From Bacteroidales bacterium (GTDB lineage: Bacteria; Bacteroidota; Bacteroidia; Bacteroidales; WCHB1-69): a stretch of DNA of 40,725 bases. This document shows, piece after piece, positions 1 to 40,379 of this stretch. Location: NCBI GenBank assembly GCA_017525245.1, contig JAFXTE010000029.1, positions 1 through 40,725 on the forward strand, given 5' to 3'. Made by a program: the position numbers and the translations under genes. Every line of letters starts with the position of its first letter. Within the stretch, counting starts at the first letter, position 1. The notes below the pieces were generated by a model. It ran no database searches. It saw only the letters and a program-made list of their open reading frames with translations, and was not told where the DNA came from.

Positions 1-1052
1 ATCTTGCCCAGCATTTCGGGATCGACACCAATCTCGGCATCGTCGGGGTCGTTTTCATCGACGGTGAAGTTGTAGGAGGCCAAGAAGGTGAAAAGGTCGT
101 TGAACAACGAAGCCGGCAGCTTGATATTCATCTTATCCACCTCGTCACGCTCGAACAAACCGCCGTTGAGGTACGGCAATTGCTCCCACTGTTTCAGCAA
201 CCCCTTATCCCACTGTTCGTCGGCAAACAGTTCCTCCCGCTGCTCCGGCTCGGTGTTGAAGATTCCGAAAAAGAGCGGTTCCAAGACTTGTTCGAGAAAA
301 TCGGCTTGATGAGGACTGGAGAGAAACAGGTCGCGCAGGAACGTCGGATTGCCGTTGAGCCAGCCTTTTTTCTGCAGGAAATGGAGGAACACGATGCGGC
401 CCATCATCTTTTTGACGTAGTCGTGGAGACGGGTATCGGATGTTCCGTCGGTAGAGACGCGCCATGTCACGTCTCTACGATAGGATTGCGTGAGGTTCGC
501 CACTATCCGGTCGTAATGGAGATGGTATTCGTCGAAGAACTCATCGCTGAGCGCATCCACCGAGAAGGATTCCCTGAGGTCGGACAGCGTTAAACGCCCA
601 TTCAGTCTGGCCACCTTCTCCAATCGCTCAAGCGGTGTTTTGTATTGCCCGTTTTCGTCACCCAGGATATAGGAGAACCGTTTGGCCGAGGTGCTGCCCT
701 CCTTGAGGTCGCAGATGTAGGACAAACGCCAGTGCCGGCCGTCGTCGAAAACGGCAATGGCCCCGTCGACATCGTATTTCAGATAGGGACTGATCAGCTT
801 GCGCAAGCCCACGCGCTTGCGACGCACATCGCCGCCTTCGGCCACACGGGTGTAGAAGAAGCCGAGCAGACGATGGTCGGCATCATCCATCTGACCGATG
901 AAAAAACTCTGGTCGCCTTCGGCGTTGGTGTCAAGCCATTCGGGACGCGAGGCCACATCGTGGCACCCAAAAAGACGATGCACGATTTCGCGGCTGTAAG
1001 TGGTGTAGTCGAACGGCGACTTGAAAATCTGACGGAGGGTTTCGGTATTCAT
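1..1052 (-). CDS. Eco57I-type restriction-modification DNA methylase, N-terminal part (cut by window edge)
   Basis: An open reading frame starts at ATG 1052 and runs without a stop off the left edge, so about 350 N-terminal residues are visible. The segment contains PYLNGGLFERDEVD and, near the edge, a stretch ending GVDPEMLGK. These are the conserved pre-catalytic signatures of the large Eco57I/type IIG and PglX-like adenine methylases; the SAM-binding and NPPY motifs would lie beyond the edge. It starts 8 nt after the stop of the helicase at 1061-4363, so the two are surely co-transcribed and presumably form one R-M or DISARM-like complex that modifies and restricts DNA. A dispersed palindrome (451-478) lies inside the frame and is translated as RRDVTWRVST. 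Family assignment is firm; target specificity cannot be read. Confidence 0.85.
   Translation of the reverse strand, partial: MNTETLRQIFKSPFDYTTYSREIVHRLFGCHDVASRPEWLDTNAEGDQSFFIGQMDDADHRLLGFFYTRVAEGGDVRRKRVGLRKLISPYLKYDVDGAIAVFDDGRHWRLSYICDLKEGSTSAKRFSYILGDENGQYKTPLERLEKVARLNGRLTLSDLRESFSVDALSDEFFDEYHLHYDRIVANLTQSYRRDVTWRVSTDGTSDTRLHDYVKKMMGRIVFLHFLQKKGWLNGNPTFLRDLFLSSPHQADFLEQVLEPLFFGIFNTEPEQREELFADEQWDKGLLKQWEQLPYLNGGLFERDEVDKMNIKLPASLFNDLFTFLASYNFTVDENDPDDAEIGVDPEMLGK
451..478. repeat. Dispersed palindromic repeat, copy 1 (inside a CDS)
   Basis: The arms GTAGAGACG and CGTCTCTAC are perfectly complementary around a GCCATGTC-like centre; 12 of 14 positions pair. Related copies sit at 17062-17087 and 33830-33853. 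This copy lies in frame inside the methylase gene; the other two are intergenic. Confidence 0.8.
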
Positions 1053-1060
1053 TGTCGGGT

Positions 1061-4000
1061 TTATTTGAAGGTTTCACTTAAAATGATGTCGGCGGCGGTG
1101 TAGGTCACCTGCTTGGTTTCAGTCTGCGTCTGTGACTGGCTGTAGCGTCTGTCCAACTCCTCAAGCTGTTCCTGTATCTTGATGAGCGGCATTGGCTCTT
1201 TCTTCTGCTTCCTCGAAATACGGTTGAGGGCATCGGCTAACTGGTTGTAGGCACCGCGTTCCACCATCTGCTTCAGACGGTCGAGGATGCTGCGACCTTC
1301 TTCGTCGAGCATAGGCCGCACCTCGCGCAGGAAAGCGGCGGCTTTTTTTGCGTCGTTGTCTTTGCTGCCGATTTTGAGCTTGTCTTCCTGATATTCGCGC
1401 TGCTGGTCGAGGGTGTATTGCCGTATGGCACTCTGTACCTGTTCGTAATGCCGCTGTATGCTGTCGCCGAAAGGCACGGCATTCTCATCGGGTTCCGCAT
1501 GGAAGATGTCGGCGGCTTCAAGGAAGGAGAGCTCGCGGGGAATGTCGCCGACGAGGTAGAAGGCTTTTTTGAGGGGAGAGGAGAGATAGACGATGGTCTG
1601 ATTTGGCGTCTCTCCGAGACGGGCACAACGACTTTTCGGCGGCAATTTCTTGATGCGGCGGTAGAGCGAAGGATGGTTGTCGTGGAGGGCTCGCACTTCG
1701 CGCAACAGCTCCAGACTGCGGTCGGTTTCGTCACGCACGTCGGTGTTGAAGAGCTTGAATTCGTGTACGAGCTCGTCGTGCGAGTAGATTTTGGTGTCCT
1801 CGCCGAGGGCGGAATGGAAACTCTGCAGCTTGATGAGGGAATTCTTCTTCAAACTGATGATGGCGTCGCCGGGATCGGAAGGGTAGAACATGTAGTTGTG
1901 AATGGCGGTGGCGGTGGAACCGATACGGTTCACACGACCGATGCGCTGCATCAACCGCGTGGCATTCCACGGGCTGTCGTAATTGACAATGACATTCGCC
2001 CTGTGCAGGTTCACGCCTTCGGCCAGCACATCGGAGGTGATCATGATGTTGTAGTCGTTACGCCACTCCTCCTTGTACTTGGCATCGAAGTTGGCCTGGA
2101 TCGTTTTCTGAAGTCGCTTGCGGTTTTTGGCGCACACGGCCAGAATATCGTCACGGTGCAGACGCTCTTTCAACTCTTTTTCCAGATAGTTGACGGTATC
2201 CACGCTTTCGCTGAACACCACTAATTTGCCGCCGGGATTCTTCTCCTTGTCGAACAATTCCCCTTGCAGCATATTGATGAAAAGTTCCAGCTTGGGGTCG
2301 GATTTCACTTTGTCCCATCGTTGGCACAGCTTGTCCAGCACATCAGCATCATACTCCAACATCGGCAGGAAATCGGGCTTGAAGTCGGCCGCATGGAAGA
2401 GTATCTCTTTTTGGTCGAACCCTTTGCCGATGGCCAGTTCTATGATTTCGTCCAACTCGACCCCGTCGGACTGCAACTTTTTCACATTCAGCTCGGGGGC
2501 GATGATGACTTTGTCTTCCCGGAACATTTTTATCATCCCCCTCGTGGCATCCAAAAGGGTGTGGAGCGAGCGGCGGAAAGCATCGAAACTGCTTTCCAAC
2601 CGTTTGACCAGATGCGTCTGGTAGATGGAGGCCAGCGAGTCGGTTATATGTTTGGCCATTTTGCCGGAAGGGACTTTGTACGAGGGACAATACTCCACCG
2701 CACGATAGCGGGCATAATGCAGACCGCTTCCGTTGAAGATGTCCGCGTTCACCTCTTTCAGATTGGCCGACGGTGTATCTACCAATTTTATGTAGGTGTC
2801 GATGAAGAGTTTCAGCAATTCGGGCGACATCTGATAGGTACGGTCGGTGGGGTCAAGAAGCTGCGGGAAATGGATTTCGTGGGCATAGCGGGGCTCGTGC
2901 TGGATATTGCTGCGGGTACGGCGCACCATCACTTTCTCCAACACCTTGTGCCGAAGCTCCTGATTGATGGCATCGATACGGGTGGTGAGGAAACCGGCGC
3001 TCATCGTGCGACGCTGCGACATAAGACTTTTGAATTCCTTGATCCACGGGGCAAAAGTGTCGGCAATGTTGCTGACGCCGTCAATCGTGCAACGCGCGAC
3101 ATCCTGAAACAGCAGCAACTGGTTCTTGATGTCCTCGGGCGTGTTGTTGAGCGGCGTGGCCGAAAGCAGCAGCACCCTTTTATCCCCCTTGACATTGCCT
3201 TTGTTCGACCGTGCCGACTTGCAGATGCGCTGCAGCAGGTCGTAGTTGCAGTTGCTGTCATGCCGGAAATTGTGCGCCTCATCGACGATGATGAGGTCGT
3301 AGCAACCAGGCTGATTGTAGTTGTTGGTGCCCTCAATGATTTTTTCCAAACTGCCATTGCTGACGAATTGGCTATAGTTGTTTTTGATTTCGAAATCCCT
3401 GAAAGTGTCCTCCCAGTTTTTTTGCACCGAAGGCGGGAAGATGACGAGGATGCGGGTGTTGTCGCCATTGGCGGCGATAAACCGTTGTGCAATCATGGCC
3501 GCCACCACGGTTTTGCCCAAACCCACCACATCGGCGATAAAGCATCCACCGTGCCGCATCATAATGTCGTATCCTTGCACCACAGCATCGCGCTGATAGG
3601 TGAGGTCGTCGTAGTTGTCGGGAAGATGAGGGACGAAATGGTCTTCGACCTGATTGCCGAAATGGTCGATGAGCATCCGCATATAGAGCTCGTATGGCGT
3701 AGGCTGGTGTTCAGGCGCCGCGAGATGAGTGCCGTCCACGATGCGGTTCACGTCATCCATAGTCACGGGTATGGCGTCGTTCCACAGATGCTGAAATTCC
3801 TCCTCGCAGTAATGCACATCGTCATAATCCTTCATGGCCACATTCAGCTCATAGCGAGGCGGTTCGGTGGTGCCGAGCCCTTGCGCACTGAGGTTGCTGC
3901 TGCCCATAATGACCCAGCCGTCGCTATGCTCGCTGTGGCTCTTCGGCAGACAGAGATAGAACTTCGCGTGGAGGTCTTTGGTGGGATGGATGCGTAACTG

Positions 4001-4363
4001 CAAACGTCCGTCGGCGATGTCGGCGCAAAATTGGCGGATGCCGTCATCCACATCGGAAGCGTATTCCGACTGATAGACATCGCGGAGGAAATCCTCGCAA
4101 TATTGTTCGAGACTCGCCTCCCTGTCGCCGAAAAACAGTTTGCCGGCGGCCTGCGACTGTCGGAAGAGATTGTCGATATTGATGCCGACGAGGATGCGGA
4201 TTTCGCTGACCTTCTCCAGCTCCTTGCGCAGTTTGAAGTAGCCGCTGGAACGAAAATAGCCAACCACGGCATGGAAGATGTCGAAGTTGGCCATGGCGGA
4301 GGCGATGCCGTGGAACTTGTCCATCAGCCTCGTCTCGATATTATTGAAAAACTTGGTGCTCAT
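1061..4363 (-). CDS. PLD-domain SNF2-family helicase of a restriction-modification/defence system
   Basis: 1100 residues. The N-terminal part carries a phospholipase-D-type nuclease signature: HAK at about 132-134 and GSSNLS at 154-159. A superfamily 2 helicase follows: GLGKT Walker A at about 281-285, DEAH at 361-364, LLLSATPLNN near 400, and a C-terminal helicase half with GRVNRIGS. SNF2 proteins with a PLD domain next to a large adenine methylase are known from DISARM-like and related multi-gene restriction systems. The likely role is ATP-driven translocation and PLD-mediated cleavage of unmodified DNA. ATG 4363 was chosen because the family N-terminus (FFNNIETRL) follows at once. The gene precedes the methylase by 8 nt and has a long structured leader (4411-4558). 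Nuclease activity is inferred from motifs only. Confidence 0.85.
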   Translation of the reverse strand: MSTKFFNNIETRLMDKFHGIASAMANFDIFHAVVGYFRSSGYFKLRKELEKVSEIRILVGINIDNLFRQSQAAGKLFFGDREASLEQYCEDFLRDVYQSEYASDVDDGIRQFCADIADGRLQLRIHPTKDLHAKFYLCLPKSHSEHSDGWVIMGSSNLSAQGLGTTEPPRYELNVAMKDYDDVHYCEEEFQHLWNDAIPVTMDDVNRIVDGTHLAAPEHQPTPYELYMRMLIDHFGNQVEDHFVPHLPDNYDDLTYQRDAVVQGYDIMMRHGGCFIADVVGLGKTVVAAMIAQRFIAANGDNTRILVIFPPSVQKNWEDTFRDFEIKNNYSQFVSNGSLEKIIEGTNNYNQPGCYDLIIVDEAHNFRHDSNCNYDLLQRICKSARSNKGNVKGDKRVLLLSATPLNNTPEDIKNQLLLFQDVARCTIDGVSNIADTFAPWIKEFKSLMSQRRTMSAGFLTTRIDAINQELRHKVLEKVMVRRTRSNIQHEPRYAHEIHFPQLLDPTDRTYQMSPELLKLFIDTYIKLVDTPSANLKEVNADIFNGSGLHYARYRAVEYCPSYKVPSGKMAKHITDSLASIYQTHLVKRLESSFDAFRRSLHTLLDATRGMIKMFREDKVIIAPELNVKKLQSDGVELDEIIELAIGKGFDQKEILFHAADFKPDFLPMLEYDADVLDKLCQRWDKVKSDPKLELFINMLQGELFDKEKNPGGKLVVFSESVDTVNYLEKELKERLHRDDILAVCAKNRKRLQKTIQANFDAKYKEEWRNDYNIMITSDVLAEGVNLHRANVIVNYDSPWNATRLMQRIGRVNRIGSTATAIHNYMFYPSDPGDAIISLKKNSLIKLQSFHSALGEDTKIYSHDELVHEFKLFNTDVRDETDRSLELLREVRALHDNHPSLYRRIKKLPPKSRCARLGETPNQTIVYLSSPLKKAFYLVGDIPRELSFLEAADIFHAEPDENAVPFGDSIQRHYEQVQSAIRQYTLDQQREYQEDKLKIGSKDNDAKKAAAFLREVRPMLDEEGRSILDRLKQMVERGAYNQLADALNRISRKQKKEPMPLIKIQEQLEELDRRYSQSQTQTETKQVTYTAADIILSETFK

Positions 4364-4410
4364 AGGCTTGGCGTTTGGGGCGCTTCGCCTTTCGAGCGGT
4401 CACAAAAAAG

Positions 4411-4558
4411 AATCCGTGAACTTCTGTCTGAATGGAGGCTCTGGACTGCCTAAATCCCAAAACAAGAAAGCCCACGGATACACCGTGAGCATTTCTGCCT
4501 TCTCGTTGGGATTAGAAATTGTCCAGATTTCCATTCACTTGAAAAGCAAAAACGCTTT
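4411..4558 (-). ncRNA. Structured leader RNA, copy A (upstream of R-M operon)
   Basis: Read on the minus strand, the segment begins with a small hairpin (4554-4558 with 4543-4547). A long branched rod follows: 4530-4536 pairs with 4430-4436, 4521-4526 with 4441-4446, 4506-4513 with 4453-4460, 4497-4505 with 4463-4471, and an apical stem 4483-4488 with 4472-4477. The same architecture with different bases in the stems occurs at 40144-40292, so the helices are supported by covariation. The 3' tail carries CACGGA (4413-4418), which could pair instead with the apical 3' strand. It lies about 50 nt upstream of the helicase start codon. I do not recognise it as a named RNA family. Confidence 0.7.
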
Positions 4559-4635
4559 ATATCAAAAAATTATAAATGTCTATTTCTCTCTTCTAATATT
4601 CAATAAAGTTTGGTTCTTATCCATTTTTACAGGCG

Positions 4636-4643
4636 CAAAAGTA
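4636..4643 (-). promoter_or_regulatory. Putative -7 box (TACTTTTG) of the R-M operon
   Basis: On the minus strand the sequence is TACTTTTG, matching the Bacteroidota -7 consensus TAnnTTTG. It lies about 80 nt before the structured leader and 270 nt before the helicase start. No good -33 TTTG is visible. Confidence 0.55.
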
Positions 4644-4773: not shown

Positions 4774-5484
4774 TTACCGCTGGTGCAGTCCGCACTCGCG
4801 GTGTTCGGGCGATTCCCACCACCAGCGTCCGGCGCGGATGTCTTCACCTGGCTTCACCGCCCGTGTACACGGCTCGCACCCGATGCTCGGGTAACCCTTG
4901 TCGTGAAGATTGTTGTATGGCACATGGTGAGCTTTCACATACTTCCACACCTGCGCCTCGGTCCAGTCAATTAGCGGGTTGATTTTCAACACGTTGTGGC
5001 TTTCATCCCATTCGATTTTCCGCATATTGGTGCGGGTGACAGACTGCTCGCGACGGAGTCCGCAGATCCATGCGTCGAGGGTTCGGAACGCGCGGCCCAG
5101 GGGCTCGAGCTTGCGCACGTGGCAGCAGGCGTGCCGCTTCTCGATGCTTTCGTAAAACGGGTTGATGCCCTGCTCCTGCACGAACCGTTGCAGCGCCTCC
5201 GTCTGCGGACAGAACACCTCCATGCGGATGCCGTAGTGCAGGTTCGTCTTGTCGATAAGCTGGTAGGTCGCTGGGAAAAGCCGGCCCGTGTCGAGCGTGA
5301 AAACCCTCGCCTCCGGGTTGACTTTCATCAGCATGTCCGTAAGGGTCTGGTCCTCAATGCTCAAACTGGACGACAAAGCAATCCTGTCTCCATAGATTTC
5401 CCAAAAATGTTGCAGCAGTTCCTCCGGAGTAGCCTCCGCAAACCGCACATTCAAATCTTCAATATCATCTTTGTAATATCTCAT
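4774..5484 (-). CDS. cysH: Assimilatory adenylyl-sulfate (APS) reductase
   Basis: 236 residues from ATG 5484; an in-frame GTG lies one codon upstream. The protein belongs to the PAPS/APS reductase family: SSSLSIEDQTL and LDTGRLFPATY form the nucleotide-binding N-terminal half. The catalytic ECGLH is at the C-terminus. The cysteine pairs CC (about 120-121) and CEPC (about 203-206) are the ligands of a [4Fe-4S] cluster, which marks the APS-using rather than the PAPS-using type. This fits the neighbouring cysDN, which make APS, and the lack of an APS kinase gene. It reduces APS to sulfite with thioredoxin-like donors in the cytoplasm. It is the last gene of the cysD-cysN-cysH series. Confidence 0.93.
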   Translation of the reverse strand: MRYYKDDIEDLNVRFAEATPEELLQHFWEIYGDRIALSSSLSIEDQTLTDMLMKVNPEARVFTLDTGRLFPATYQLIDKTNLHYGIRMEVFCPQTEALQRFVQEQGINPFYESIEKRHACCHVRKLEPLGRAFRTLDAWICGLRREQSVTRTNMRKIEWDESHNVLKINPLIDWTEAQVWKYVKAHHVPYNNLHDKGYPSIGCEPCTRAVKPGEDIRAGRWWWESPEHRECGLHQR

Positions 5485-5487
5485 CAC

Positions 5488-6797: not shown

Positions 6798-6827
6798 TGC
6801 TAACTACTAACTGCTAACTACTAACTA
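6798..6827 (-). repeat. Degenerate tandem tract after cysD (GTTAGTAG family)
   Basis: In cysD sense it reads GTTAGTAGTTAGCAG repeated, starting at the cysD stop codon and filling the gap to cysN. The same motif follows pstB, nqrF and the gene at 38726. Confidence 0.7.
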
Positions 6828-7724
6828 AAAGTACCCTTCCTTCTTCCGGTCCTCCATGGCGGTTTCGCTGCGCTTGTCATCGGCACGACCACCGCGTTCG
6901 GTGATGCGGGTGGCGGCGATCTCGGAAATGATGTCCTCCAAGGAGTTGGCCTCGGAGATGGTGAGTCCGGTACAGGTGATGTCGCCGATGGTGCGGCAAC
7001 GCACACGGCGGGTGACCACCTCCTCGGTGGGCTTCAGCGTCATGCAGGGCTCGGCAGCCAACCACTGGCCGTCGCGGAGGAAACAGCGACGCTCGTGCGT
7101 GAAGTAGAGCGACGGCAACGGGATTTTCTCCGCATAGATGTACTGCCAGACGTCCATCTCAGTCCAGTTGCTGATGGGGAACACGCGGAAATGCTCGCCC
7201 ATATTCTTGCGCCCGTTGAAGATGTTCCACAGTTCGGGCCGCTGGTTCTTGGGGTTCCACTGCCCGAATTCGTCGCGATGCGAGAAAAAACGCTCTTTGG
7301 CGCGGGCTTTCTCCTCATCACGCCGAGCGCCTCCGATGCACGCGTCGAACTTGTATTCCTCGATGGTGTCTAACAACGTTGTGGTCTGCAGACGGTTACG
7401 GCTGGCGTTGTAGCCCTTTTCCTCCTTCACACGTCCCTTGTCGATGCTCTCCTGCACGGAGCCGACGACCAGCTGCGCCCCTAACTGCTCCACGAGCGCG
7501 TCGCGGTAGTCGAGGGTTTCCTGGAAGTTGTGCCCCGTGTCGATGTGCAGCAACGGGAACGGGATCTTGGCGGGATAGAACGCCTTGTAGGCCAAATAGG
7601 TGACCACGATGGAGTCCTTGCCACCGGAGAAGAGGATAGCGGGCTTCTCAAACTGCGCCGCCACCTCCCGCAAGACGTAGATGGACTCGGATTCCAATTC
7701 TTTCAAATGAGTTAACTTATACAT
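6825..7724 (-). CDS. cysD: Sulfate adenylyltransferase subunit 2
   Basis: 299 residues, a normal CysD length. The PP-loop ATP pyrophosphatase motif is LFSGGKDSIV at about 31-40. Further family segments are LLHIDTGHNF, GARRDEEKARAKERFFSHRD and WNIFNGRKNMGEHFRVFPIS. It catalyses adenylation of sulfate to APS together with CysN. It lies in a minus-strand series about 98 nt downstream of pstB, so it may belong to the same transcript as the phosphate-type transporter genes. Start at ATG 7724. Confidence 0.95.
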   Translation of the reverse strand: MYKLTHLKELESESIYVLREVAAQFEKPAILFSGGKDSIVVTYLAYKAFYPAKIPFPLLHIDTGHNFQETLDYRDALVEQLGAQLVVGSVQESIDKGRVKEEKGYNASRNRLQTTTLLDTIEEYKFDACIGGARRDEEKARAKERFFSHRDEFGQWNPKNQRPELWNIFNGRKNMGEHFRVFPISNWTEMDVWQYIYAEKIPLPSLYFTHERRCFLRDGQWLAAEPCMTLKPTEEVVTRRVRCRTIGDITCTGLTISEANSLEDIISEIAATRITERGGRADDKRSETAMEDRKKEGYF

Positions 7725-35154: not shown

Positions 35155-38100
35155 TTAATCGCGGAGGCAGCGGACAGAATAGCCGTTGTCCTTGTGGTAG
35201 TCCTGGAACATGAGCATGCGCGCGTTGGCGAAGGCCAGGCTGCGGTAGTAGGCGAGGCTCGGGTCGCTGCTGCCCAGCGTAGCACACCAGAAGTAGGCTT
35301 GGTCGCCCGCGTCGTAGTACGACAAACCTCTGCAGTAACCTGCCGGAACGGCGGAAAAGCCCGTGGCATTGTTCGTGCTCGGGCCGTTGCCCACCACACA
35401 AATGCCTGTGCTGCTGTTCCACCCCTCTGTGGAGGCTAACGCCTTGGCGATGTAACTGCTGTTGCCGCCGCAGGTGTATTCGCTTTGGCTACTGACATAG
35501 TCAGTCAGTGCCGTCCACTCCGCGTTGCTCGGCAGATGCCAACCCGCAGGGCACACCAAATTGGCCGCAGGCCAGTTGTACAGGTAGCCCCGTGTCGCCA
35601 ACGGCAGGCTGTGGCTGCTGTAATCGTAGTAGTACGGCTCCGTGTAGCTGCTGTATGGGCCGGAAGTCGTGGTCGTGCCGTTAGTGGCACCGGCGGGCGC
35701 CACACGCAGGTTCGTCTTCGTCCAGCATTGCGTGCCGATCTGCACCGTCTCGTACTCGTTGCCGTCCGCGTCAACCATCTTGCTGGTGCCGCAGGTGAAG
35801 GAGGCGGAGCCGGAAGCCGTGGTGGTAAACGCCACCTCGTCGCCGTAGCTTGTGCCGGCAGCCGTGGTCACGAACGCACGGTAGGTGTAGGATGTGCCGG
35901 CGGTGAGGCCCGTGAGGGCGTAGGTCATCGTCTCGCCCGTGGCGTTCACTGCCGCGTAAGCTCCGCCCGCAGTGGCTTTCCACTCAAAGCCCTGTGCGGT
36001 GATGGCCACTTCATCGGGGTTCGAGACGCTGCCGTTCAGCGTGGCGGAGGTCTCTGTCACATCGGTCGCACCGGAGGTGGTCACCGTGGGCTCGGTCGAT
36101 GCCGTGCCGCCGCCCGTCTCATCGCGGAGACAGCGGACCGACTGACCGTTGCTCTTGTCGCCGACGCCCCTGCTCACGTACGCGAAATTGCAGTACAGGA
36201 TGCGGTTGTAGGCGACGCCCGGGTAGCTCAAGTCCTGCGTAGCATTCCAGAAGCTGGCGCTGCCGCCCGCGTAGTTGAACGACGAACCGTTGCAGGTGCC
36301 TGCCGGAACGGCGGAAAAGCCCGTGGCGTTGTTCTTGCTCGGGTCGTTGCCCACCACACAAATGTACGTGCTCGGGTTCCACCCCTCTGTGGAGGCCAAC
36401 GCCTTGGCGATGTAACTGCTGTTGCCGCCGCACTGGAATTCACTCTGGCTGCTCACATAGTCGGTCAGCGTTGTCCACTCCGCGTCGCTCGGCAGGTGCC
36501 AGCCTGTCGGGCAGGCCAGCTTAGCGGCCTCCCAGTTGTAGTAGTAACCGTAAACAGCGGGGTTAACAGCCGAATTAACGTAGTAGTACGGCACCGTATA
36601 GCTGGATGCGCCGGAGGATGTCGCGTCCGTGGCACCGGCGGGCGCCACCCGCAGGTTCGTCTTCGTCCAACACTGCGTGCCGATCAGCACCGTCTCGTAC
36701 TCGTTGCCGTCCGCGTCAACCATCTTCGACGTGCCGCAGATGAAGGAGGCGGAGCCGGAAGCCGTGGTGGTAAACACCACCTCGTCGCTGTAGCTTATGC
36801 CGGCAGCCGTGGTCACGAACGCACGGTAGGTGTAGGATGTGCCGGCGGTGAGGCCCGTGAGGGCGTAGCTCATCGTGGAACCCGTGGCTGTCACCTGTGC
36901 GTAGGTGCCGCCCGTGGTGGCCTTCCACTCGAAACCCTGCGCCGTGATGGTCACGCCGTCGGGGTTCGCCACGCTGCCGTTCAGCGTGGCGGAGGTCTCT
37001 GTCACATCGGTCGCACCGGAGGTGGTCACCGTGGGCTCGGTCGATGCCGTGCCGCCGCCCGTCTCACCGCGGAGGCAGCGGACCGAGAACCCGTAGTTGC
37101 GGGATCTGTCGTTGAACCGGCTCACGTGGGCGAAGTCGTAGTTCAGGTAGCGGTGCCATGCGGAGTTCGTACCGTACTCCGTGGAGGACCAGAAGTAGGC
37201 ATAGCTACCCGCGCCGTCAAACCCGCTGCTCCAGCCACCGGCTGGAACGGCCCCGAAGCCCGAAGCGTTGTGGTCAAGGTCGGACGCGTCGCCAGATGCA
37301 CCCGCTGTCGATGAGGAATTCCAACCCTCACCGGCCAGCTTGCCCGCATGGCTGCCACGATAGCCTGTGGCTATCGCGTAATTCGCCTGCCAGTCCGTTC
37401 CACTCACGGTCTCTTCCAACGTGTTCCACTCCGCGTCGCTCGGCAGGTGCCAGCCTGTCGGGCAGGCCAGCTTAGCGGCCTCCCAGTTGTAGTAGTAACC
37501 GTAAACAGCGGGGTTAACAGCCGAATTAACGTAGTAGTAAGGCACCGTATTGCTGGATGCGCCGGAGGATGTCGCGTCCGTGGCACCGGCGGGCGCCACC
37601 CGCAGGTTAGTCTTCGTCCAGCACTGCGTGCCGATCAGCACCGTCTCGTACTCGTTGCCGTCCGCGTCAACCATCTTGCTCGTGCCGCAGACAAACGTGG
37701 TGGGGTCACTACTGCCGCCGCCGGTCACGCCCAGTGCGTCGCGCAGCGCCTCCTTCTCGGCATCCGTCATGCCGCCCACCAAGGCCAGCAGGTCGGCAAC
37801 ACTCATCGCGGGAATGGCCACATTAGTGTTACCACCCTGATTCGCAGTGAACGTACTGCTCGTGCCGTCCGGCAACGTAATCGTCAGAGTGCCGTCGTTC
37901 ACGGTCGGGTCACTCTCGATGGTGAGGTAAGGGGTCATGTCAGGAGTGTTCGTGATTTCACTGTAGTCGTAAACAGGCTTCACAGACTCTTTCGCCCAAT
38001 CCGGAACAGTCGGATCGGTCTCCGATGTCAGATAGCCGCTCATGTCAGGAGTGTTTGTGATTTCCGAATAGTCGTAAACAGGCTTGGTCGCCTCTTTCGC

Positions 38101-38571
38101 CCATGCGGGAACCGTCGGGTCGGTCTCAACAATGGAGCCGATGCTGTGATGCTCGAGGTAATCATCTACCGCGTCGTTCACCCAGTGGATGTCCACGCTG
38201 TCGGCGTAGAATGCGTAGGGCACCGCATTCACCGGTGTGGTGTTCGACAAGGTGGTGCCGATCGGCAGGGTGACTTCCGTGTGGATCTGCGCCGTGCGCC
38301 AATCCACAGATGCCATGTTGCCGCTCTGGCCGCTGCCCTCGCCAATCATCAGCGAAATAACACCGTTGCGGTTGCTCGTCACGCTGTGCGTCTCGCTAAA
38401 GACGGACGTGCTGTTCGCATCCGAGATGCGGATGGCCACGGTCAGGTTCTCTTCCGCCACCAGCTCGTTGGCCGCGTTGCGCACCACCGCCTGGTAGCTC
38501 ATTCTGTTGGTTTGCGCGAGCATCGTCGCCGCGCTGAATAGCACTAATGCTAAGAGTATCAGTTTCTTCAT
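35155..38571 (-). CDS. Large secreted modular protein with three FISUMP domains and two Fn3-like linkers
   Basis: 1138 residues from ATG 38571. The signal peptide (KKLILLALVLFSAATMLAQ) leads to SYQAVVRNAANELVAEENLT, an N-terminal domain common in Bacteroidota surface and tail-fibre-like proteins. Two short repeats WAKE-x-KPVYDYSEITNTPDM follow. Three FISUMP domains (about 294-499, 611-818, 927-1138) each show CGTSKMVDADGNEYETV, GTQCWTKTNLRVAPAGAT, CPTGWHLPSDAEW and a final SVRCLR. Two Fn3-like domains (TSATLNGSV, GLTAGTSYTYRAFVTTAAG) join them. The modules are nearly identical at the DNA level. No T9SS domain is seen at the C-terminus. The function is presumed surface binding or adhesion. Confidence 0.85.
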   Translation of the reverse strand: MKKLILLALVLFSAATMLAQTNRMSYQAVVRNAANELVAEENLTVAIRISDANSTSVFSETHSVTSNRNGVISLMIGEGSGQSGNMASVDWRTAQIHTEVTLPIGTTLSNTTPVNAVPYAFYADSVDIHWVNDAVDDYLEHHSIGSIVETDPTVPAWAKEATKPVYDYSEITNTPDMSGYLTSETDPTVPDWAKESVKPVYDYSEITNTPDMTPYLTIESDPTVNDGTLTITLPDGTSSTFTANQGGNTNVAIPAMSVADLLALVGGMTDAEKEALRDALGVTGGGSSDPTTFVCGTSKMVDADGNEYETVLIGTQCWTKTNLRVAPAGATDATSSGASSNTVPYYYVNSAVNPAVYGYYYNWEAAKLACPTGWHLPSDAEWNTLEETVSGTDWQANYAIATGYRGSHAGKLAGEGWNSSSTAGASGDASDLDHNASGFGAVPAGGWSSGFDGAGSYAYFWSSTEYGTNSAWHRYLNYDFAHVSRFNDRSRNYGFSVRCLRGETGGGTASTEPTVTTSGATDVTETSATLNGSVANPDGVTITAQGFEWKATTGGTYAQVTATGSTMSYALTGLTAGTSYTYRAFVTTAAGISYSDEVVFTTTASGSASFICGTSKMVDADGNEYETVLIGTQCWTKTNLRVAPAGATDATSSGASSYTVPYYYVNSAVNPAVYGYYYNWEAAKLACPTGWHLPSDAEWTTLTDYVSSQSEFQCGGNSSYIAKALASTEGWNPSTYICVVGNDPSKNNATGFSAVPAGTCNGSSFNYAGGSASFWNATQDLSYPGVAYNRILYCNFAYVSRGVGDKSNGQSVRCLRDETGGGTASTEPTVTTSGATDVTETSATLNGSVSNPDEVAITAQGFEWKATAGGAYAAVNATGETMTYALTGLTAGTSYTYRAFVTTAAGTSYGDEVAFTTTASGSASFTCGTSKMVDADGNEYETVQIGTQCWTKTNLRVAPAGATNGTTTTSGPYSSYTEPYYYDYSSHSLPLATRGYLYNWPAANLVCPAGWHLPSNAEWTALTDYVSSQSEYTCGGNSSYIAKALASTEGWNSSTGICVVGNGPSTNNATGFSAVPAGYCRGLSYYDAGDQAYFWCATLGSSDPSLAYYRSLAFANARMLMFQDYHKDNGYSVRCLRD

Positions 38572-38631
38572 ATTTATTTGATTTTTTATTTGTTTCTTTT
38601 TTATCCCAGGGCTCACGACAATTACACTCTG

Positions 38632-38690
38632 GGTTCCGGAAAGCCCCACACTGCGCTTCGCTTGTATGGGGTTACTTGCACTGCGTGCGT
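38632..38690 (-). repeat. Dispersed hairpin repeat, copy 2
   Basis: On the minus strand it reads GTAACCCCATACAAG, a turn and AGTGTGGGGCTTT, homologous to 4692-4744. It lies upstream of the large FISUMP gene and downstream of the smaller one. A second hairpin, TGCCTC-TCC-GAGGCA, is adjacent at about 38694-38708. Confidence 0.55.
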
Positions 38691-38711
38691 TTTGCCTCTC
38701 CGAGGCAGTTC

Positions 38712-38728
38712 CCAACTACTAACTGCTA
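38712..38728 (-). repeat. Degenerate tandem tract after the small FISUMP gene (GTTAGTAG family)
   Basis: In gene sense it reads TAGCAGTTAGTAGTTGG, where the first TAG is the stop codon. It is the same motif as after cysD, pstB and nqrF. Confidence 0.7.
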
Positions 38729-39712
38729 ATAGTTTTTCACGCAGCGCACGCTCACGGCGTCATTCGCATTGAGGGTGGTGGGAAGCGGCGTATTGCAGTA
38801 ATAGACGGTTGATAACGAGGTGGCCGCACTCGGAGTGGGGGCAGCCGTACTCCACAGGTGGGTGTCCAACAGCAGACGCTCGAACCCGTCATTACCGGCA
38901 TTGTATAGTCCGGCAGGCAGTTCGCTGAAACCCGTACTGTTAGTGTTGCTGTTCGGGGTGATCCAGTGTTCGGTGCTACGGATGTCCTCGGCGGCGAGAG
39001 CCTCCAACGCATTCATCTCCACGACAGTGGGAATATGCCATCCTGAGGGGCAGATTCCCTGCACGAAGCCATCGGCATCCGTCACGGGCGCGGCGGCGCT
39101 GCCCTCCGGCACGTTCAACGCAGAGTACCACGTGTATAAACGCCCATAAACGGACTCGTTTTCAGCGACATCCGGAAATGCATCCGACTCGTAAACCAAC
39201 GCTTTGGCGATTGCCGTACCCGCCGCATCATCATAGTGTTGCGCACGGAGGTTCGTCTGCGTCCAGCAATAACTGGCAACTTCGATGGTCGGATAGGGGT
39301 TGTTGTCCCCGTCATACACCAAATCACCGCAGGAGAACGGTCCCAACACTCTGAGTTTAAGCGTTTTGAGCAGGTCATATTTATAACTGCCACCGTATGG
39401 GGTGTAAATCTTGTCGCTATATGTGCCTATCGGTGTAGTGGCGGGATAGGAGAAGCCATGCCCCTCATAACCTTCACCGAAGGAGACTATCTCCTCGTAT
39501 TCCTCGCGCTCCAATTGCGCCTGCGCGATGCCTGCGGAAAGTTCATAGCCGCTGCCTGCGACCGAACCGGTAAACAGTTCGCCTACCGCCACATAGAGAC
39601 CGCCGCCGGAACTCGCGCCAACGGGCACCGCATACATGGTGGAGACTTGCGCCTCTGCCGTTCCCACAAGTGCAAACAGCAGAATAATTAATCGTAAAAG
39701 TCTGTTACTCAT
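38726..39712 (-). CDS. Secreted single-domain FISUMP protein
   Basis: 328 residues from ATG 39712. The signal peptide (RLLRLIILLFALVGTAEAQ) is followed by a glycine-rich N-terminal part with SGGGLYVAVGELFTGSVAGS. One FISUMP domain covers about 140-328: SCGDLVYDGDNNPYPTIEV, YCWTQTNLRAQ, GICPSGWHIPTVVEMNALE and SVRCVKNY. It lies upstream of the larger FISUMP gene on the same strand with a 154-nt repeat-rich spacer. The domain is clearly diverged from those of its neighbour. Presumably a surface protein. Confidence 0.82.
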   Translation of the reverse strand: MSNRLLRLIILLFALVGTAEAQVSTMYAVPVGASSGGGLYVAVGELFTGSVAGSGYELSAGIAQAQLEREEYEEIVSFGEGYEGHGFSYPATTPIGTYSDKIYTPYGGSYKYDLLKTLKLRVLGPFSCGDLVYDGDNNPYPTIEVASYCWTQTNLRAQHYDDAAGTAIAKALVYESDAFPDVAENESVYGRLYTWYSALNVPEGSAAAPVTDADGFVQGICPSGWHIPTVVEMNALEALAAEDIRSTEHWITPNSNTNSTGFSELPAGLYNAGNDGFERLLLDTHLWSTAAPTPSAATSLSTVYYCNTPLPTTLNANDAVSVRCVKNY

Positions 39713-39849
39713 TATATTGCAATTTTTTATATACATAATATATTAAACTGCAAATATGATAATATTCCTAATATACTGATAATGAGAGGTATTGCAAATT
39801 ATACCACAGGAATATGGCACTTTTTGCCACACTTTAGTGATTAGTGAAT

Positions 39850-39909
39850 AAAAGAAGGTTATGTCTAAGTCGTAGTCATCGTTTAAGTTTAAGTCTAAGT
39901 CTAAGTTTA
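39850..39909 (-). repeat. Degenerate tandem tract after the small HTH gene
   Basis: In gene sense it reads ACTTAGACTTAGACTTAAAC and continues with ACGACTTAGAC, starting directly at the stop codon. Confidence 0.65.
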
Positions 39910-40137
39910 AGTTATCGCCATCGCTTCAGAAATATCCCGCAAGAAGTCGTGGTTCAGCAGTTTGGAGATGCGAACCAGCATGGCGAGGTCGATGCTCTCC
40001 CGCTTGAGCATCTTGTGAACAACGCTGTAGTCGCGGTGGATGGCCTCTGAGAACCACTTCATCGTGCGACCCTGCGCCTTCAGCTCTGCGCGTATCATCT
40101 GACCGATGTGTATGTCTTCTATATTGTTTGCAGGCAT
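39907..40137 (-). CDS. Small XRE-like helix-turn-helix protein
   Basis: 76 residues from ATG 40137 (MPANNIEDIHIGQMIRAELK). A longer frame upstream overlaps the structured leader and is rejected. The pattern IHIGxxIRxELKxxGRTxKWFxExIHRDYSVVHKMLKRESID is that of the small Bacteroidota XRE-type regulators. It is a DNA-binding protein, probably a repressor. Its start codon comes 6 nt after the conserved CACGGA tail of leader RNA copy B, so translation may be controlled by that structure. Targets are unknown. Confidence 0.78.
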   Translation of the reverse strand: MPANNIEDIHIGQMIRAELKAQGRTMKWFSEAIHRDYSVVHKMLKRESIDLAMLVRISKLLNHDFLRDISEAMAIT

Positions 40138-40143
40138 AAAAAA

Positions 40144-40292
40144 TCCGTGTTCTTTCTGTCTATACCTGAGGTTCGCCAAAACCTTTAATGCAAACAAGAA
40201 AGCCCACGGAATACCCGTAGGCGTTCGGCTTTCTTGTGCATTAAATTGTGAAATTGGCGATTTCAGGTACACTTGAAAAGCGGAAACGCTTT
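40144..40292 (-). ncRNA. Structured leader RNA, copy B (upstream of small HTH gene)
   Basis: Same architecture as 4411-4558. The 5' hairpin is 40288-40292 with 40277-40281. Outer stems are 40264-40269 with 40163-40168 and 40255-40259 with 40174-40178. Inner stems are 40237-40245 with 40184-40192 (9 bp) and 40228-40236 with 40195-40203 (9 bp, perfect). The apical stem is 40215-40220 with 40204-40209. Outer and inner stems differ in sequence from copy A but keep pairing. The shared tail CACGGA (40144-40149) sits 6 nt before the HTH start codon. Confidence 0.72.
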
Positions 40293-40371
40293 ATATCAAT
40301 ATGTTAAAAAATCAAAAGTATCTATTCAATTCTCTTTTGGGGTTTTAATCAGACATCAATGAAAAACGTTG

Positions 40372-40379
40372 CAAAAATA
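40372..40379 (-). promoter_or_regulatory. Putative -7 box (TATTTTTG) of leader RNA copy B
   Basis: On the minus strand TATTTTTG fits TAnnTTTG, about 80 nt before the structured element, the same distance as in copy A. Confidence 0.65.

Follow-up and report, generated by a model that had tools for sequence, protein, structure and literature searches.

A putative bistable attenuator RNA family in operon leaders of Bacteroidota

Two leader elements and the genes behind them

We analyzed a 40,725-nucleotide stretch of DNA from a Bacteroidales bacterium (contig JAFXTE010000029.1), referred to here as the window. An earlier note on this DNA had described two homologous leader RNAs, and both are indeed present on the minus strand, copy A at 4404–4643 and copy B at 40138–40379, each with a promoter box, an AT-rich lead-in, an AAAGCG hairpin, a rod and a tail containing CACGGAT. 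The box is of the TAnnTTTG type, which we take to be the Bacteroidetes promoter consensus. Copy A and the operon behind it comprise the following features.

4636–4643, minus strand: promoter −7 box TACTTTTG, TAnnTTTG type
4541–4558, minus strand: region 1, AAAGCGTTTTTGCTTTTC, which can fold as hairpin H or, in the other fold, pair with region 2
4430–4536, minus strand: rod, with P1 (4531–4536/4430–4435), S2 (4521–4526/4441–4446), P3 (4506–4513/4453–4460) and the tip (4463–4504)
4515–4531, minus strand: P2 of the other fold, a GAAAT/ATTTC hairpin whose loop holds CTGGAC
4483–4504, minus strand: region 2, the 5′ tip arm; its partner is region 1 or region 3
4463–4479, minus strand: region 3, the 3′ tip arm; its partner is region 2 or region 4
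4436–4451, minus strand: P4 of the other fold, an AGGC/GCCT hairpin whose loop holds GTCCAG
4404–4423, minus strand: proposed 3′ strand of a terminator, made of region 4, AAGTTCACGGAT (4412–4423), and a U-run (4404–4412)
1061–4363, minus strand: helicase gene, 1100 amino acids, PLD/SNF2-type, reaching no NCBIfam cut-off
1–1052, minus strand: second ORF of the operon, the start of a type IIG restriction-modification gene that runs off the window end

The corresponding features of copy B are as follows.

40372–40379, minus strand: promoter −7 box TATTTTTG
40275–40292, minus strand: region 1/hairpin H
40163–40269, minus strand: rod, with P1 (40264–40269/40163–40168), S2 (40255–40260/40173–40178) and P3 (40237–40245/40184–40192)
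40220–40236, minus strand: region 2
40195–40211, minus strand: region 3
40169–40184, minus strand: P4
40138–40154, minus strand: region 4 and U-run, AAGAACACGGATTTTTT, with the ATG of the next ORF directly after
39907–40137, minus strand: 76-amino-acid ORF, helix-turn-helix-like by eye
38726–39736 and 35155–38715, minus strand: two Fib_succ_major proteins

The restriction-modification operon that had been placed behind copy A was borne out: the helicase gene is followed by the window-edge ORF, which matches type IIG models (E = 2.9e-20), and a homologous operon at another locus (L070) carries a type IIG-like gene at the equivalent place. For the 76-amino-acid ORF behind copy B, searches of Pfam, PADLOC and NCBIfam gave no match at E = 0.001. 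Upstream of copy A lie two proteins with PAPS-reductase domains (4774–5487 and 6825–7724) next to a GTP_EFTU protein, a sulfate-assimilation-like cluster; one of the two PAPS-reductase-domain proteins also matches the PADLOC model BrxP (E = 6e-15).

Folded as single sequences, copy A reached −54.9 kcal/mol (z = −5.67) and copy B −55.8 kcal/mol (z = −7.31), and in each case none of 200 shuffled sequences folded as well. Rfam 15 returned only tRNA over the whole window; neither copy reached a gathering score, and the best E value under lax filters was 0.34.

Homologues, covariation and gene context

Covariance modeling, which the earlier note had proposed as a check, yielded homologues with covariation in other genomes. 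An initial model (R1) was derived from 34 copies detected by script, 29 of which were aligned with MAFFT (alignment A4, not fitted to structure), and at E = 0.001 it matched 94 of the 295 genomes searched within the order and 43 of the 395 within the phylum. A broader model (R2), built from 86 matches in 85 loci (alignment A6, fitted to the rod), raised these figures to 118 of 295 and 62 of 395 at E = 0.0001. The same strict filters at E = 0.01 gave no R2 match in either of two other phyla (199 and 200 genomes), namely those of records labeled Ruminococcus and Rhodobacteraceae. Judging from record labels, the genomes that carry the family appear to belong to Bacteroidota. In the 3.68-Mb genome from which the window comes, all nine scored candidates matched, giving a total of at least nine, and a DNA search with a single copy matched 27 of 60 genomes: the own genome, 25 of 35 of the genus and 1 of 24 others. 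A DNA pattern for the tip matched 65 named genome stretches, and R2 located the element in 42 of the 47 that were scanned; the five in which it was absent are labeled Ruminococcus (two), Eubacteriaceae, Anaerolineaceae and Rhodobacteraceae. A viral origin was considered and rejected: the H pattern occurs in 18 viral contigs, but R1 gives only short matches there, with a best E value of 0.01.

Partial and modified forms also occur. In close relatives, a lead-in and H segment stand before other genes with no rod (L056 7662, L057 2409, L061 1271, L065 7715, L031 2476–2534 and L043), one of the ORFs behind them being nucleotidyltransferase-like by eye, and several such segments are followed by a complete element roughly 1 kb downstream on the same strand. 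At L100 (1501–1693) an extra stem-loop is inserted in the H segment, showing that element length is free at that place. Directly 3′ of the U-run in five copies (L002, L039, L054, L055 and L063) there is a GGCGGAAACGGTTTATAA-type stretch nearly complementary to the H segment, and a further pairing between the two is possible in several close copies.

That the stems keep their pairing while their bases differ, as had been claimed from the two copies of the window, holds beyond chance across the family. In A4, 91.6% of cells of the rod pair, compared with 78.7% after shuffling, and double changes occur in 23 of the 42 pairs; the number of double-change cells was 180 against 60.6 in shuffled alignments (none of 500 as high) and 27–39 for slid partners. 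In the 86 copies of A6, 94.7% of cells pair, 38 of 42 pairs show double changes, and double-change cells number 821 against 231. The internal-loop bases that the earlier note had called conserved are largely kept in the same 86 copies: the three A are present in 78, 86 and 85, and the opposite ACC in 70, 85 and 85. Counted by A6 column, the kept bases are A70 (86), A71 (85), U81 (86), U82 (85), G210 (86), C224 (85) and C225 (85). Much of the tip, GCUCACG/CGUGGGC, is likewise kept, and the sequences of P1, S2 and P3 are almost free. Note that the shuffles and permutation tests used here and below correct only partly for the relatedness of the sequences. Twenty divergent elements outside R2 gave z scores of −12.5, −8.8 and −13.0 for the rod stems; because a model of the rod served to find and align these elements, only their scores for the two helices outside the rod, given below, are free of that selection.

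We compared the leaders of six homologous helicase operons in all 15 pairs. The proteins of L076 and L077 are 98% identical over 280 amino acids, with stem arms at 39% and the remaining element at 88%; copy A and L046 share 97% of the protein, 51% of the stem arms and 94% of the remainder; and L041 and L076 share 63%, 100% and 90%. Over the 15 pairs, stem arms are 27–100% identical and the remaining element 84–94%, and these values do not clearly follow protein identity. This decoupling suggests that stems or leaders move between operons at a higher rate than the genes themselves diverge. Leaders might be swapped within an old pool, or pairing between copies might be selected against; either would be a possible explanation.

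The elements are consistently oriented with respect to promoters and genes. A promoter box lies within 120 nucleotides upstream of 67 of 84 elements, compared with 8.8 in shuffled sequence and with 12 of 79 stretches at 580–700 nucleotides upstream, and there is no enrichment downstream (6 of 84 vs 7.1 shuffled). Among 44 named copies the upstream box was found in 31 of 39 (2.4 shuffled) and the downstream box in 4 of 39 (1.5 shuffled), and among the 20 divergent elements in 11 (2.1) and 2 (1.9), respectively; 16 of 86 elements have no promoter box within 220 nucleotides. Since the box is enriched upstream but not downstream, the genes behind seem to depend on read-through. An ORF of at least 100 amino acids in the same direction starts within 400 nucleotides of 66 of 77 elements, and the mirror-image count is 28 of 77.

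Taking the longest ATG-initiated ORF that starts within 550 nucleotides, we obtained a downstream ORF for 73 of 81 elements; 37 of these start 26–80 nucleotides 3′ of the element and 71 at least 26 nucleotides from it. Forty-six of the 73 open with a rough signal-like segment, compared with 5.0 in shuffled proteins. Among the Pfam matches listed for the 73 proteins, which cover 25 of 58 families, there were 12 Plug, 11 CarbopepD_reg_2, 6 BspA repeats, 5 ResIII, 5 PLDc_2, 4 Por_Secre_tail (T9SS tails) and 2 sigma-70 domains; other downstream genes are restriction or defense genes. The earlier suggestion of a leader for defense and HTH genes therefore stands for the restriction-modification operon behind copy A but is not specific, since Plug, BspA and T9SS-tail proteins and Fib_succ_major also follow the element.

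At one locus (L129, 96–1055) a retron-type reverse transcriptase gene (RVT_1, E = 6e-21; best PADLOC E = 5e-96) begins about 445 nucleotides after the element. This gene may be one more target, and its own RNA could be located in the gap. Retron, bridge-RNA and 6S-like readings of the element itself do not fit because copies precede many different genes.

A second set of pairings

The earlier note described the rod but not a second fold that is incompatible with it. Each arm of the tip has an alternative partner: the sequence of the 3′ arm, AUCCGUGGGCUU, complements that of the tail, AAGUUCACGGAU, and the 5′ arm complements the 5′ hairpin region. When the pairing of regions 3 and 4 (helix 3:4) was forced in copy A, the 5′ hairpin region paired with the 5′ arm of the tip, as helix 1:2.

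The tail tracks changes in the tip (CACGGA/UCCGUG, CACGAU/AUCGUG and CACGC/GCGUG). In A4, the 12 pairs of helix 3:4 form in 96.8% of cells, and five of them show double changes. In A6, 87.1% of cells pair and 88 double-change cells were counted against 19.9 after shuffling; the five central pairs form in 97.9%, and the ends are weaker, with two positions unpaired in 37 and 38 of 86 elements and a third in 31. A U-run follows the helix, with a mean of 7.8 U in the next 10 nucleotides (n = 86, lowest 3).

To compare each arm's own partner with swapped partners, duplex energies were calculated for 85 elements. Helix 1:2 gave −16.2 kcal/mol with its own partner vs −12.1 with swapped ones (z = −13.2), with z = −11.7 in 52 divergent elements and −3.6 in 33 close ones, and helix 3:4 gave −16.6 vs −12.6 kcal/mol (z = −12.0); control region pairs gave z scores of 0.9 and −0.3. 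In the 20 divergent elements outside R2 the scores were −9.6 for 1:2 and −6.0 for 3:4, with controls at −2.1 (12 of 500), 0.5 and 0.7. Helix 1:2 is nearly invariant in 44 close copies (z = −2.1, 6 of 500), and helix 3:4 scored −8.3 there. Because region 1 covaries with region 2, we rejected the view of hairpin H as a mere stable stem. The hairpins P2 and P4 are also kept (z = −5.7 and −6.0 over all elements; P2 −2.0 in the divergent ones), and the second fold may contain a four-way junction with kissing P2 and P4 loops, which would look the same in these analyses.

We also folded prefixes of the 86 elements as a growing transcript would expose them. Helix 1:2 formed in 85 once region 2 was complete and still in 42 when the 3′ arm of the tip was added; with the 3′ arm of P1 out, it formed in 1, the rod tip in 85 and hairpin H in 82. 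Minimum-free-energy folds at full length contained the rod tip in 79 elements, the terminator in 7 and hairpin H in 32, and a fold with the terminator forced was weaker by a median of 10.8 kcal/mol (nearest-neighbor energies). The rod is thus the stabler state in energy models, and equilibrium would favor read-through; the terminated state would need kinetics (speed), a factor, or loop–loop contacts outside the energy model.

Proposed mechanism, alternatives and relation to known RNAs

Taken together, the elements have a covarying terminator-like helix followed by a U-run and, on the same strand, an exclusive antiterminator-like helix that also covaries. Because the two folds exclude each other and one resembles a transcription stop signal, each element probably acts as a switch that turns the downstream genes on or off. 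Transcription attenuation, which the earlier note did not consider, is its likely function, and we hold with considerable though not full confidence that each element is a bistable transcription attenuator in an operon 5′ leader, a reading drawn from sequence comparison. Transcription would begin at the upstream TAnnTTTG promoter, and once region 2 had been made, region 1 would pair with it in a helix of about 15–20 bp with hairpin P2 in its loop. In the ON state, region 3 would capture region 2, and P3, S2 and P1 would close the rod as an antiterminator, releasing region 1 and leaving region 4 free, such that polymerase continues into the gene. In the OFF state, region 1 would hold region 2, and region 3 would pair with region 4, with P4 in the loop, directly before the U-run; this predicted intrinsic terminator would stop transcription about 170–250 nucleotides from the start. 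The pairings 1:2 and 3:4 would exclude 2:3.

The scheme presumes that the terminator works and that a factor, presumably a protein or a small molecule, tips the balance. Such a factor would most likely recognize the kept A and U bases and the G...CC bases around S2. These kept bases are compatible with a riboswitch ligand site, and the genes downstream are so diverse that they point to no particular ligand or protein. A more tentative extension, which we regard as possible but doubtful, is a Bacteroidota-wide attenuator regulon that reads one signal through the S2 core and thereby controls the transcription of numerous surface and defense operons, with P1, S2 and P3 serving as swappable, quickly replaced tags that prevent pairing between the copies within a genome.

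Several other explanations could account for part of the data. The elements might be free-standing small RNAs of about 170–250 nucleotides that act in trans, with the downstream genes incidental, and the promoter box, the U-run and the presence of several copies per genome would fit. Yet a same-strand ORF within 400 nucleotides in 66 of 77 cases, the 37 of 73 ORFs that start at 26–80 nucleotides and the absence of box enrichment after the U-run (6 of 84 vs 7.1), by which the genes seem dependent on read-through, argue for a leader, and a terminator that is always on has no need of a covarying antiterminator; we therefore consider small RNAs improbable. Slightly less probable still is control of translation, by masking of the start site, or of RNA stability in place of termination. 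In copy B the ATG directly follows the U-run, so helix 3:4 would hide the start too, but the chosen ORF begins at least 26 nucleotides after the element in 71 of 73 cases, and the U-run directly after helix 3:4 is kept.

A reading at the DNA level appears just as remote. A mobile palindrome or an attC-like or REP-like hairpin, with stems kept complementary by templated repair or recombination and the RNA fold as a by-product, would explain why G-U pairs are rare in P1 (2.7%), S2 (0.3%) and P3 (3.9%) and why stems are exchanged between homologous operons, and several copies (uncounted) are at most a few hundred bases away from a contig end. However, G-U pairs are frequent in the tip (17.1%) and the terminator helix (25.4%), helices 1:2 and 3:4 covary although they lie outside the rod hairpin, the orientation to promoter box and gene is constant, and no convincing member occurs among the 18 viral contigs with the H pattern (best match shortened, E = 0.01). 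The orientation and promoter data likewise make the end of a mobile element unlikely.

Among known systems, the attenuator model comes closest to trp-type attenuators, in which helices 1:2 and 3:4 exclude 2:3. The elements share this exclusive pairing of four consecutive regions and the U-run after 3:4, but differ in that region 1 can be sequestered in a hairpin of its own and that 2:3 is extended by three variable stems into a rod. No shared leader peptide or ATG over region 1 was seen by eye in the alignments, and in many divergent members only 20–29 nucleotides separate the box from the element (23 boxes in A6), so there is hardly space for such a peptide. The NusG paralogues LoaP and, in Bacteroides, UpxY bring about leader-dependent antitermination of long operons, a feature shared with the proposed elements; no NusG-like family is among the 25 of 58 Pfam families listed for the 73 downstream proteins. 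Terminator-platform riboswitches, with crcB and pfl as examples (PMC2864571), likewise combine a structured leader, a terminator overlapping the conserved fold and several target genes. Unlike known riboswitches, the element matches no Rfam 15 class, and most of its rod is unconserved in sequence.

Over 40 further loci that carry the element, Rfam 15 reported at threshold only DUF805, DUF805b and rteR, all beside elements. The DUF805 (RF03081) and DUF805b (RF02914) RNAs are Rfam families of cis-regulatory RNAs, and the element too would be cis-regulatory, but they are separate, short motifs that the element does not match. A DUF805 RNA lies between element and ORF at L097 (1393–1461) and L086 (1798–1863), which suggests tandem leader elements, and further DUF805 or DUF805b RNAs lie downstream of the element at L086 (1705–1741) and L081 (519–553). 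At L130 (2250–2330), an rteR sRNA match (RF04181, 93.5 bits) is found near the element.

Earlier surveys are also relevant. A 2017 study reportedly lists 224 candidate RNAs. Among the candidates of Fremin and Bhatt 2021, HMP2_4205 (132 bp) lies near TPR genes and HMP2_1881 (108 bp) near radical SAM genes; both are mostly from Bacteroidetes, and the former was called a terminator candidate (PMC8040213). Both resemble the element in taxon and size, and by their descriptions, the basis of this comparison, they may overlap with the family; unlike the element, they have no two-state mechanism described for them in the passages covered (PMC8040213). The open-access literature covered, including passages of PMC8040213, PMC7366714, PMC9723704 and PMC2864571, contained no description of the element. 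With its further homologues, its covariation and the lack of an Rfam match, the view of the earlier note that this is a cis-regulatory RNA class absent from Rfam is strengthened.

With covariation documenting the pairings of both folds, the family makes a sharp test of RNA switching. It also poses a puzzle, in that the stems change wholesale while the operon hardly changes. If the attenuator model is correct, the elements would constitute a large, unrecognized layer of gene control in Bacteroidota, one that precedes receptors, surface proteins and restriction or defense genes, and so would govern what the cell shows to hosts and phages.
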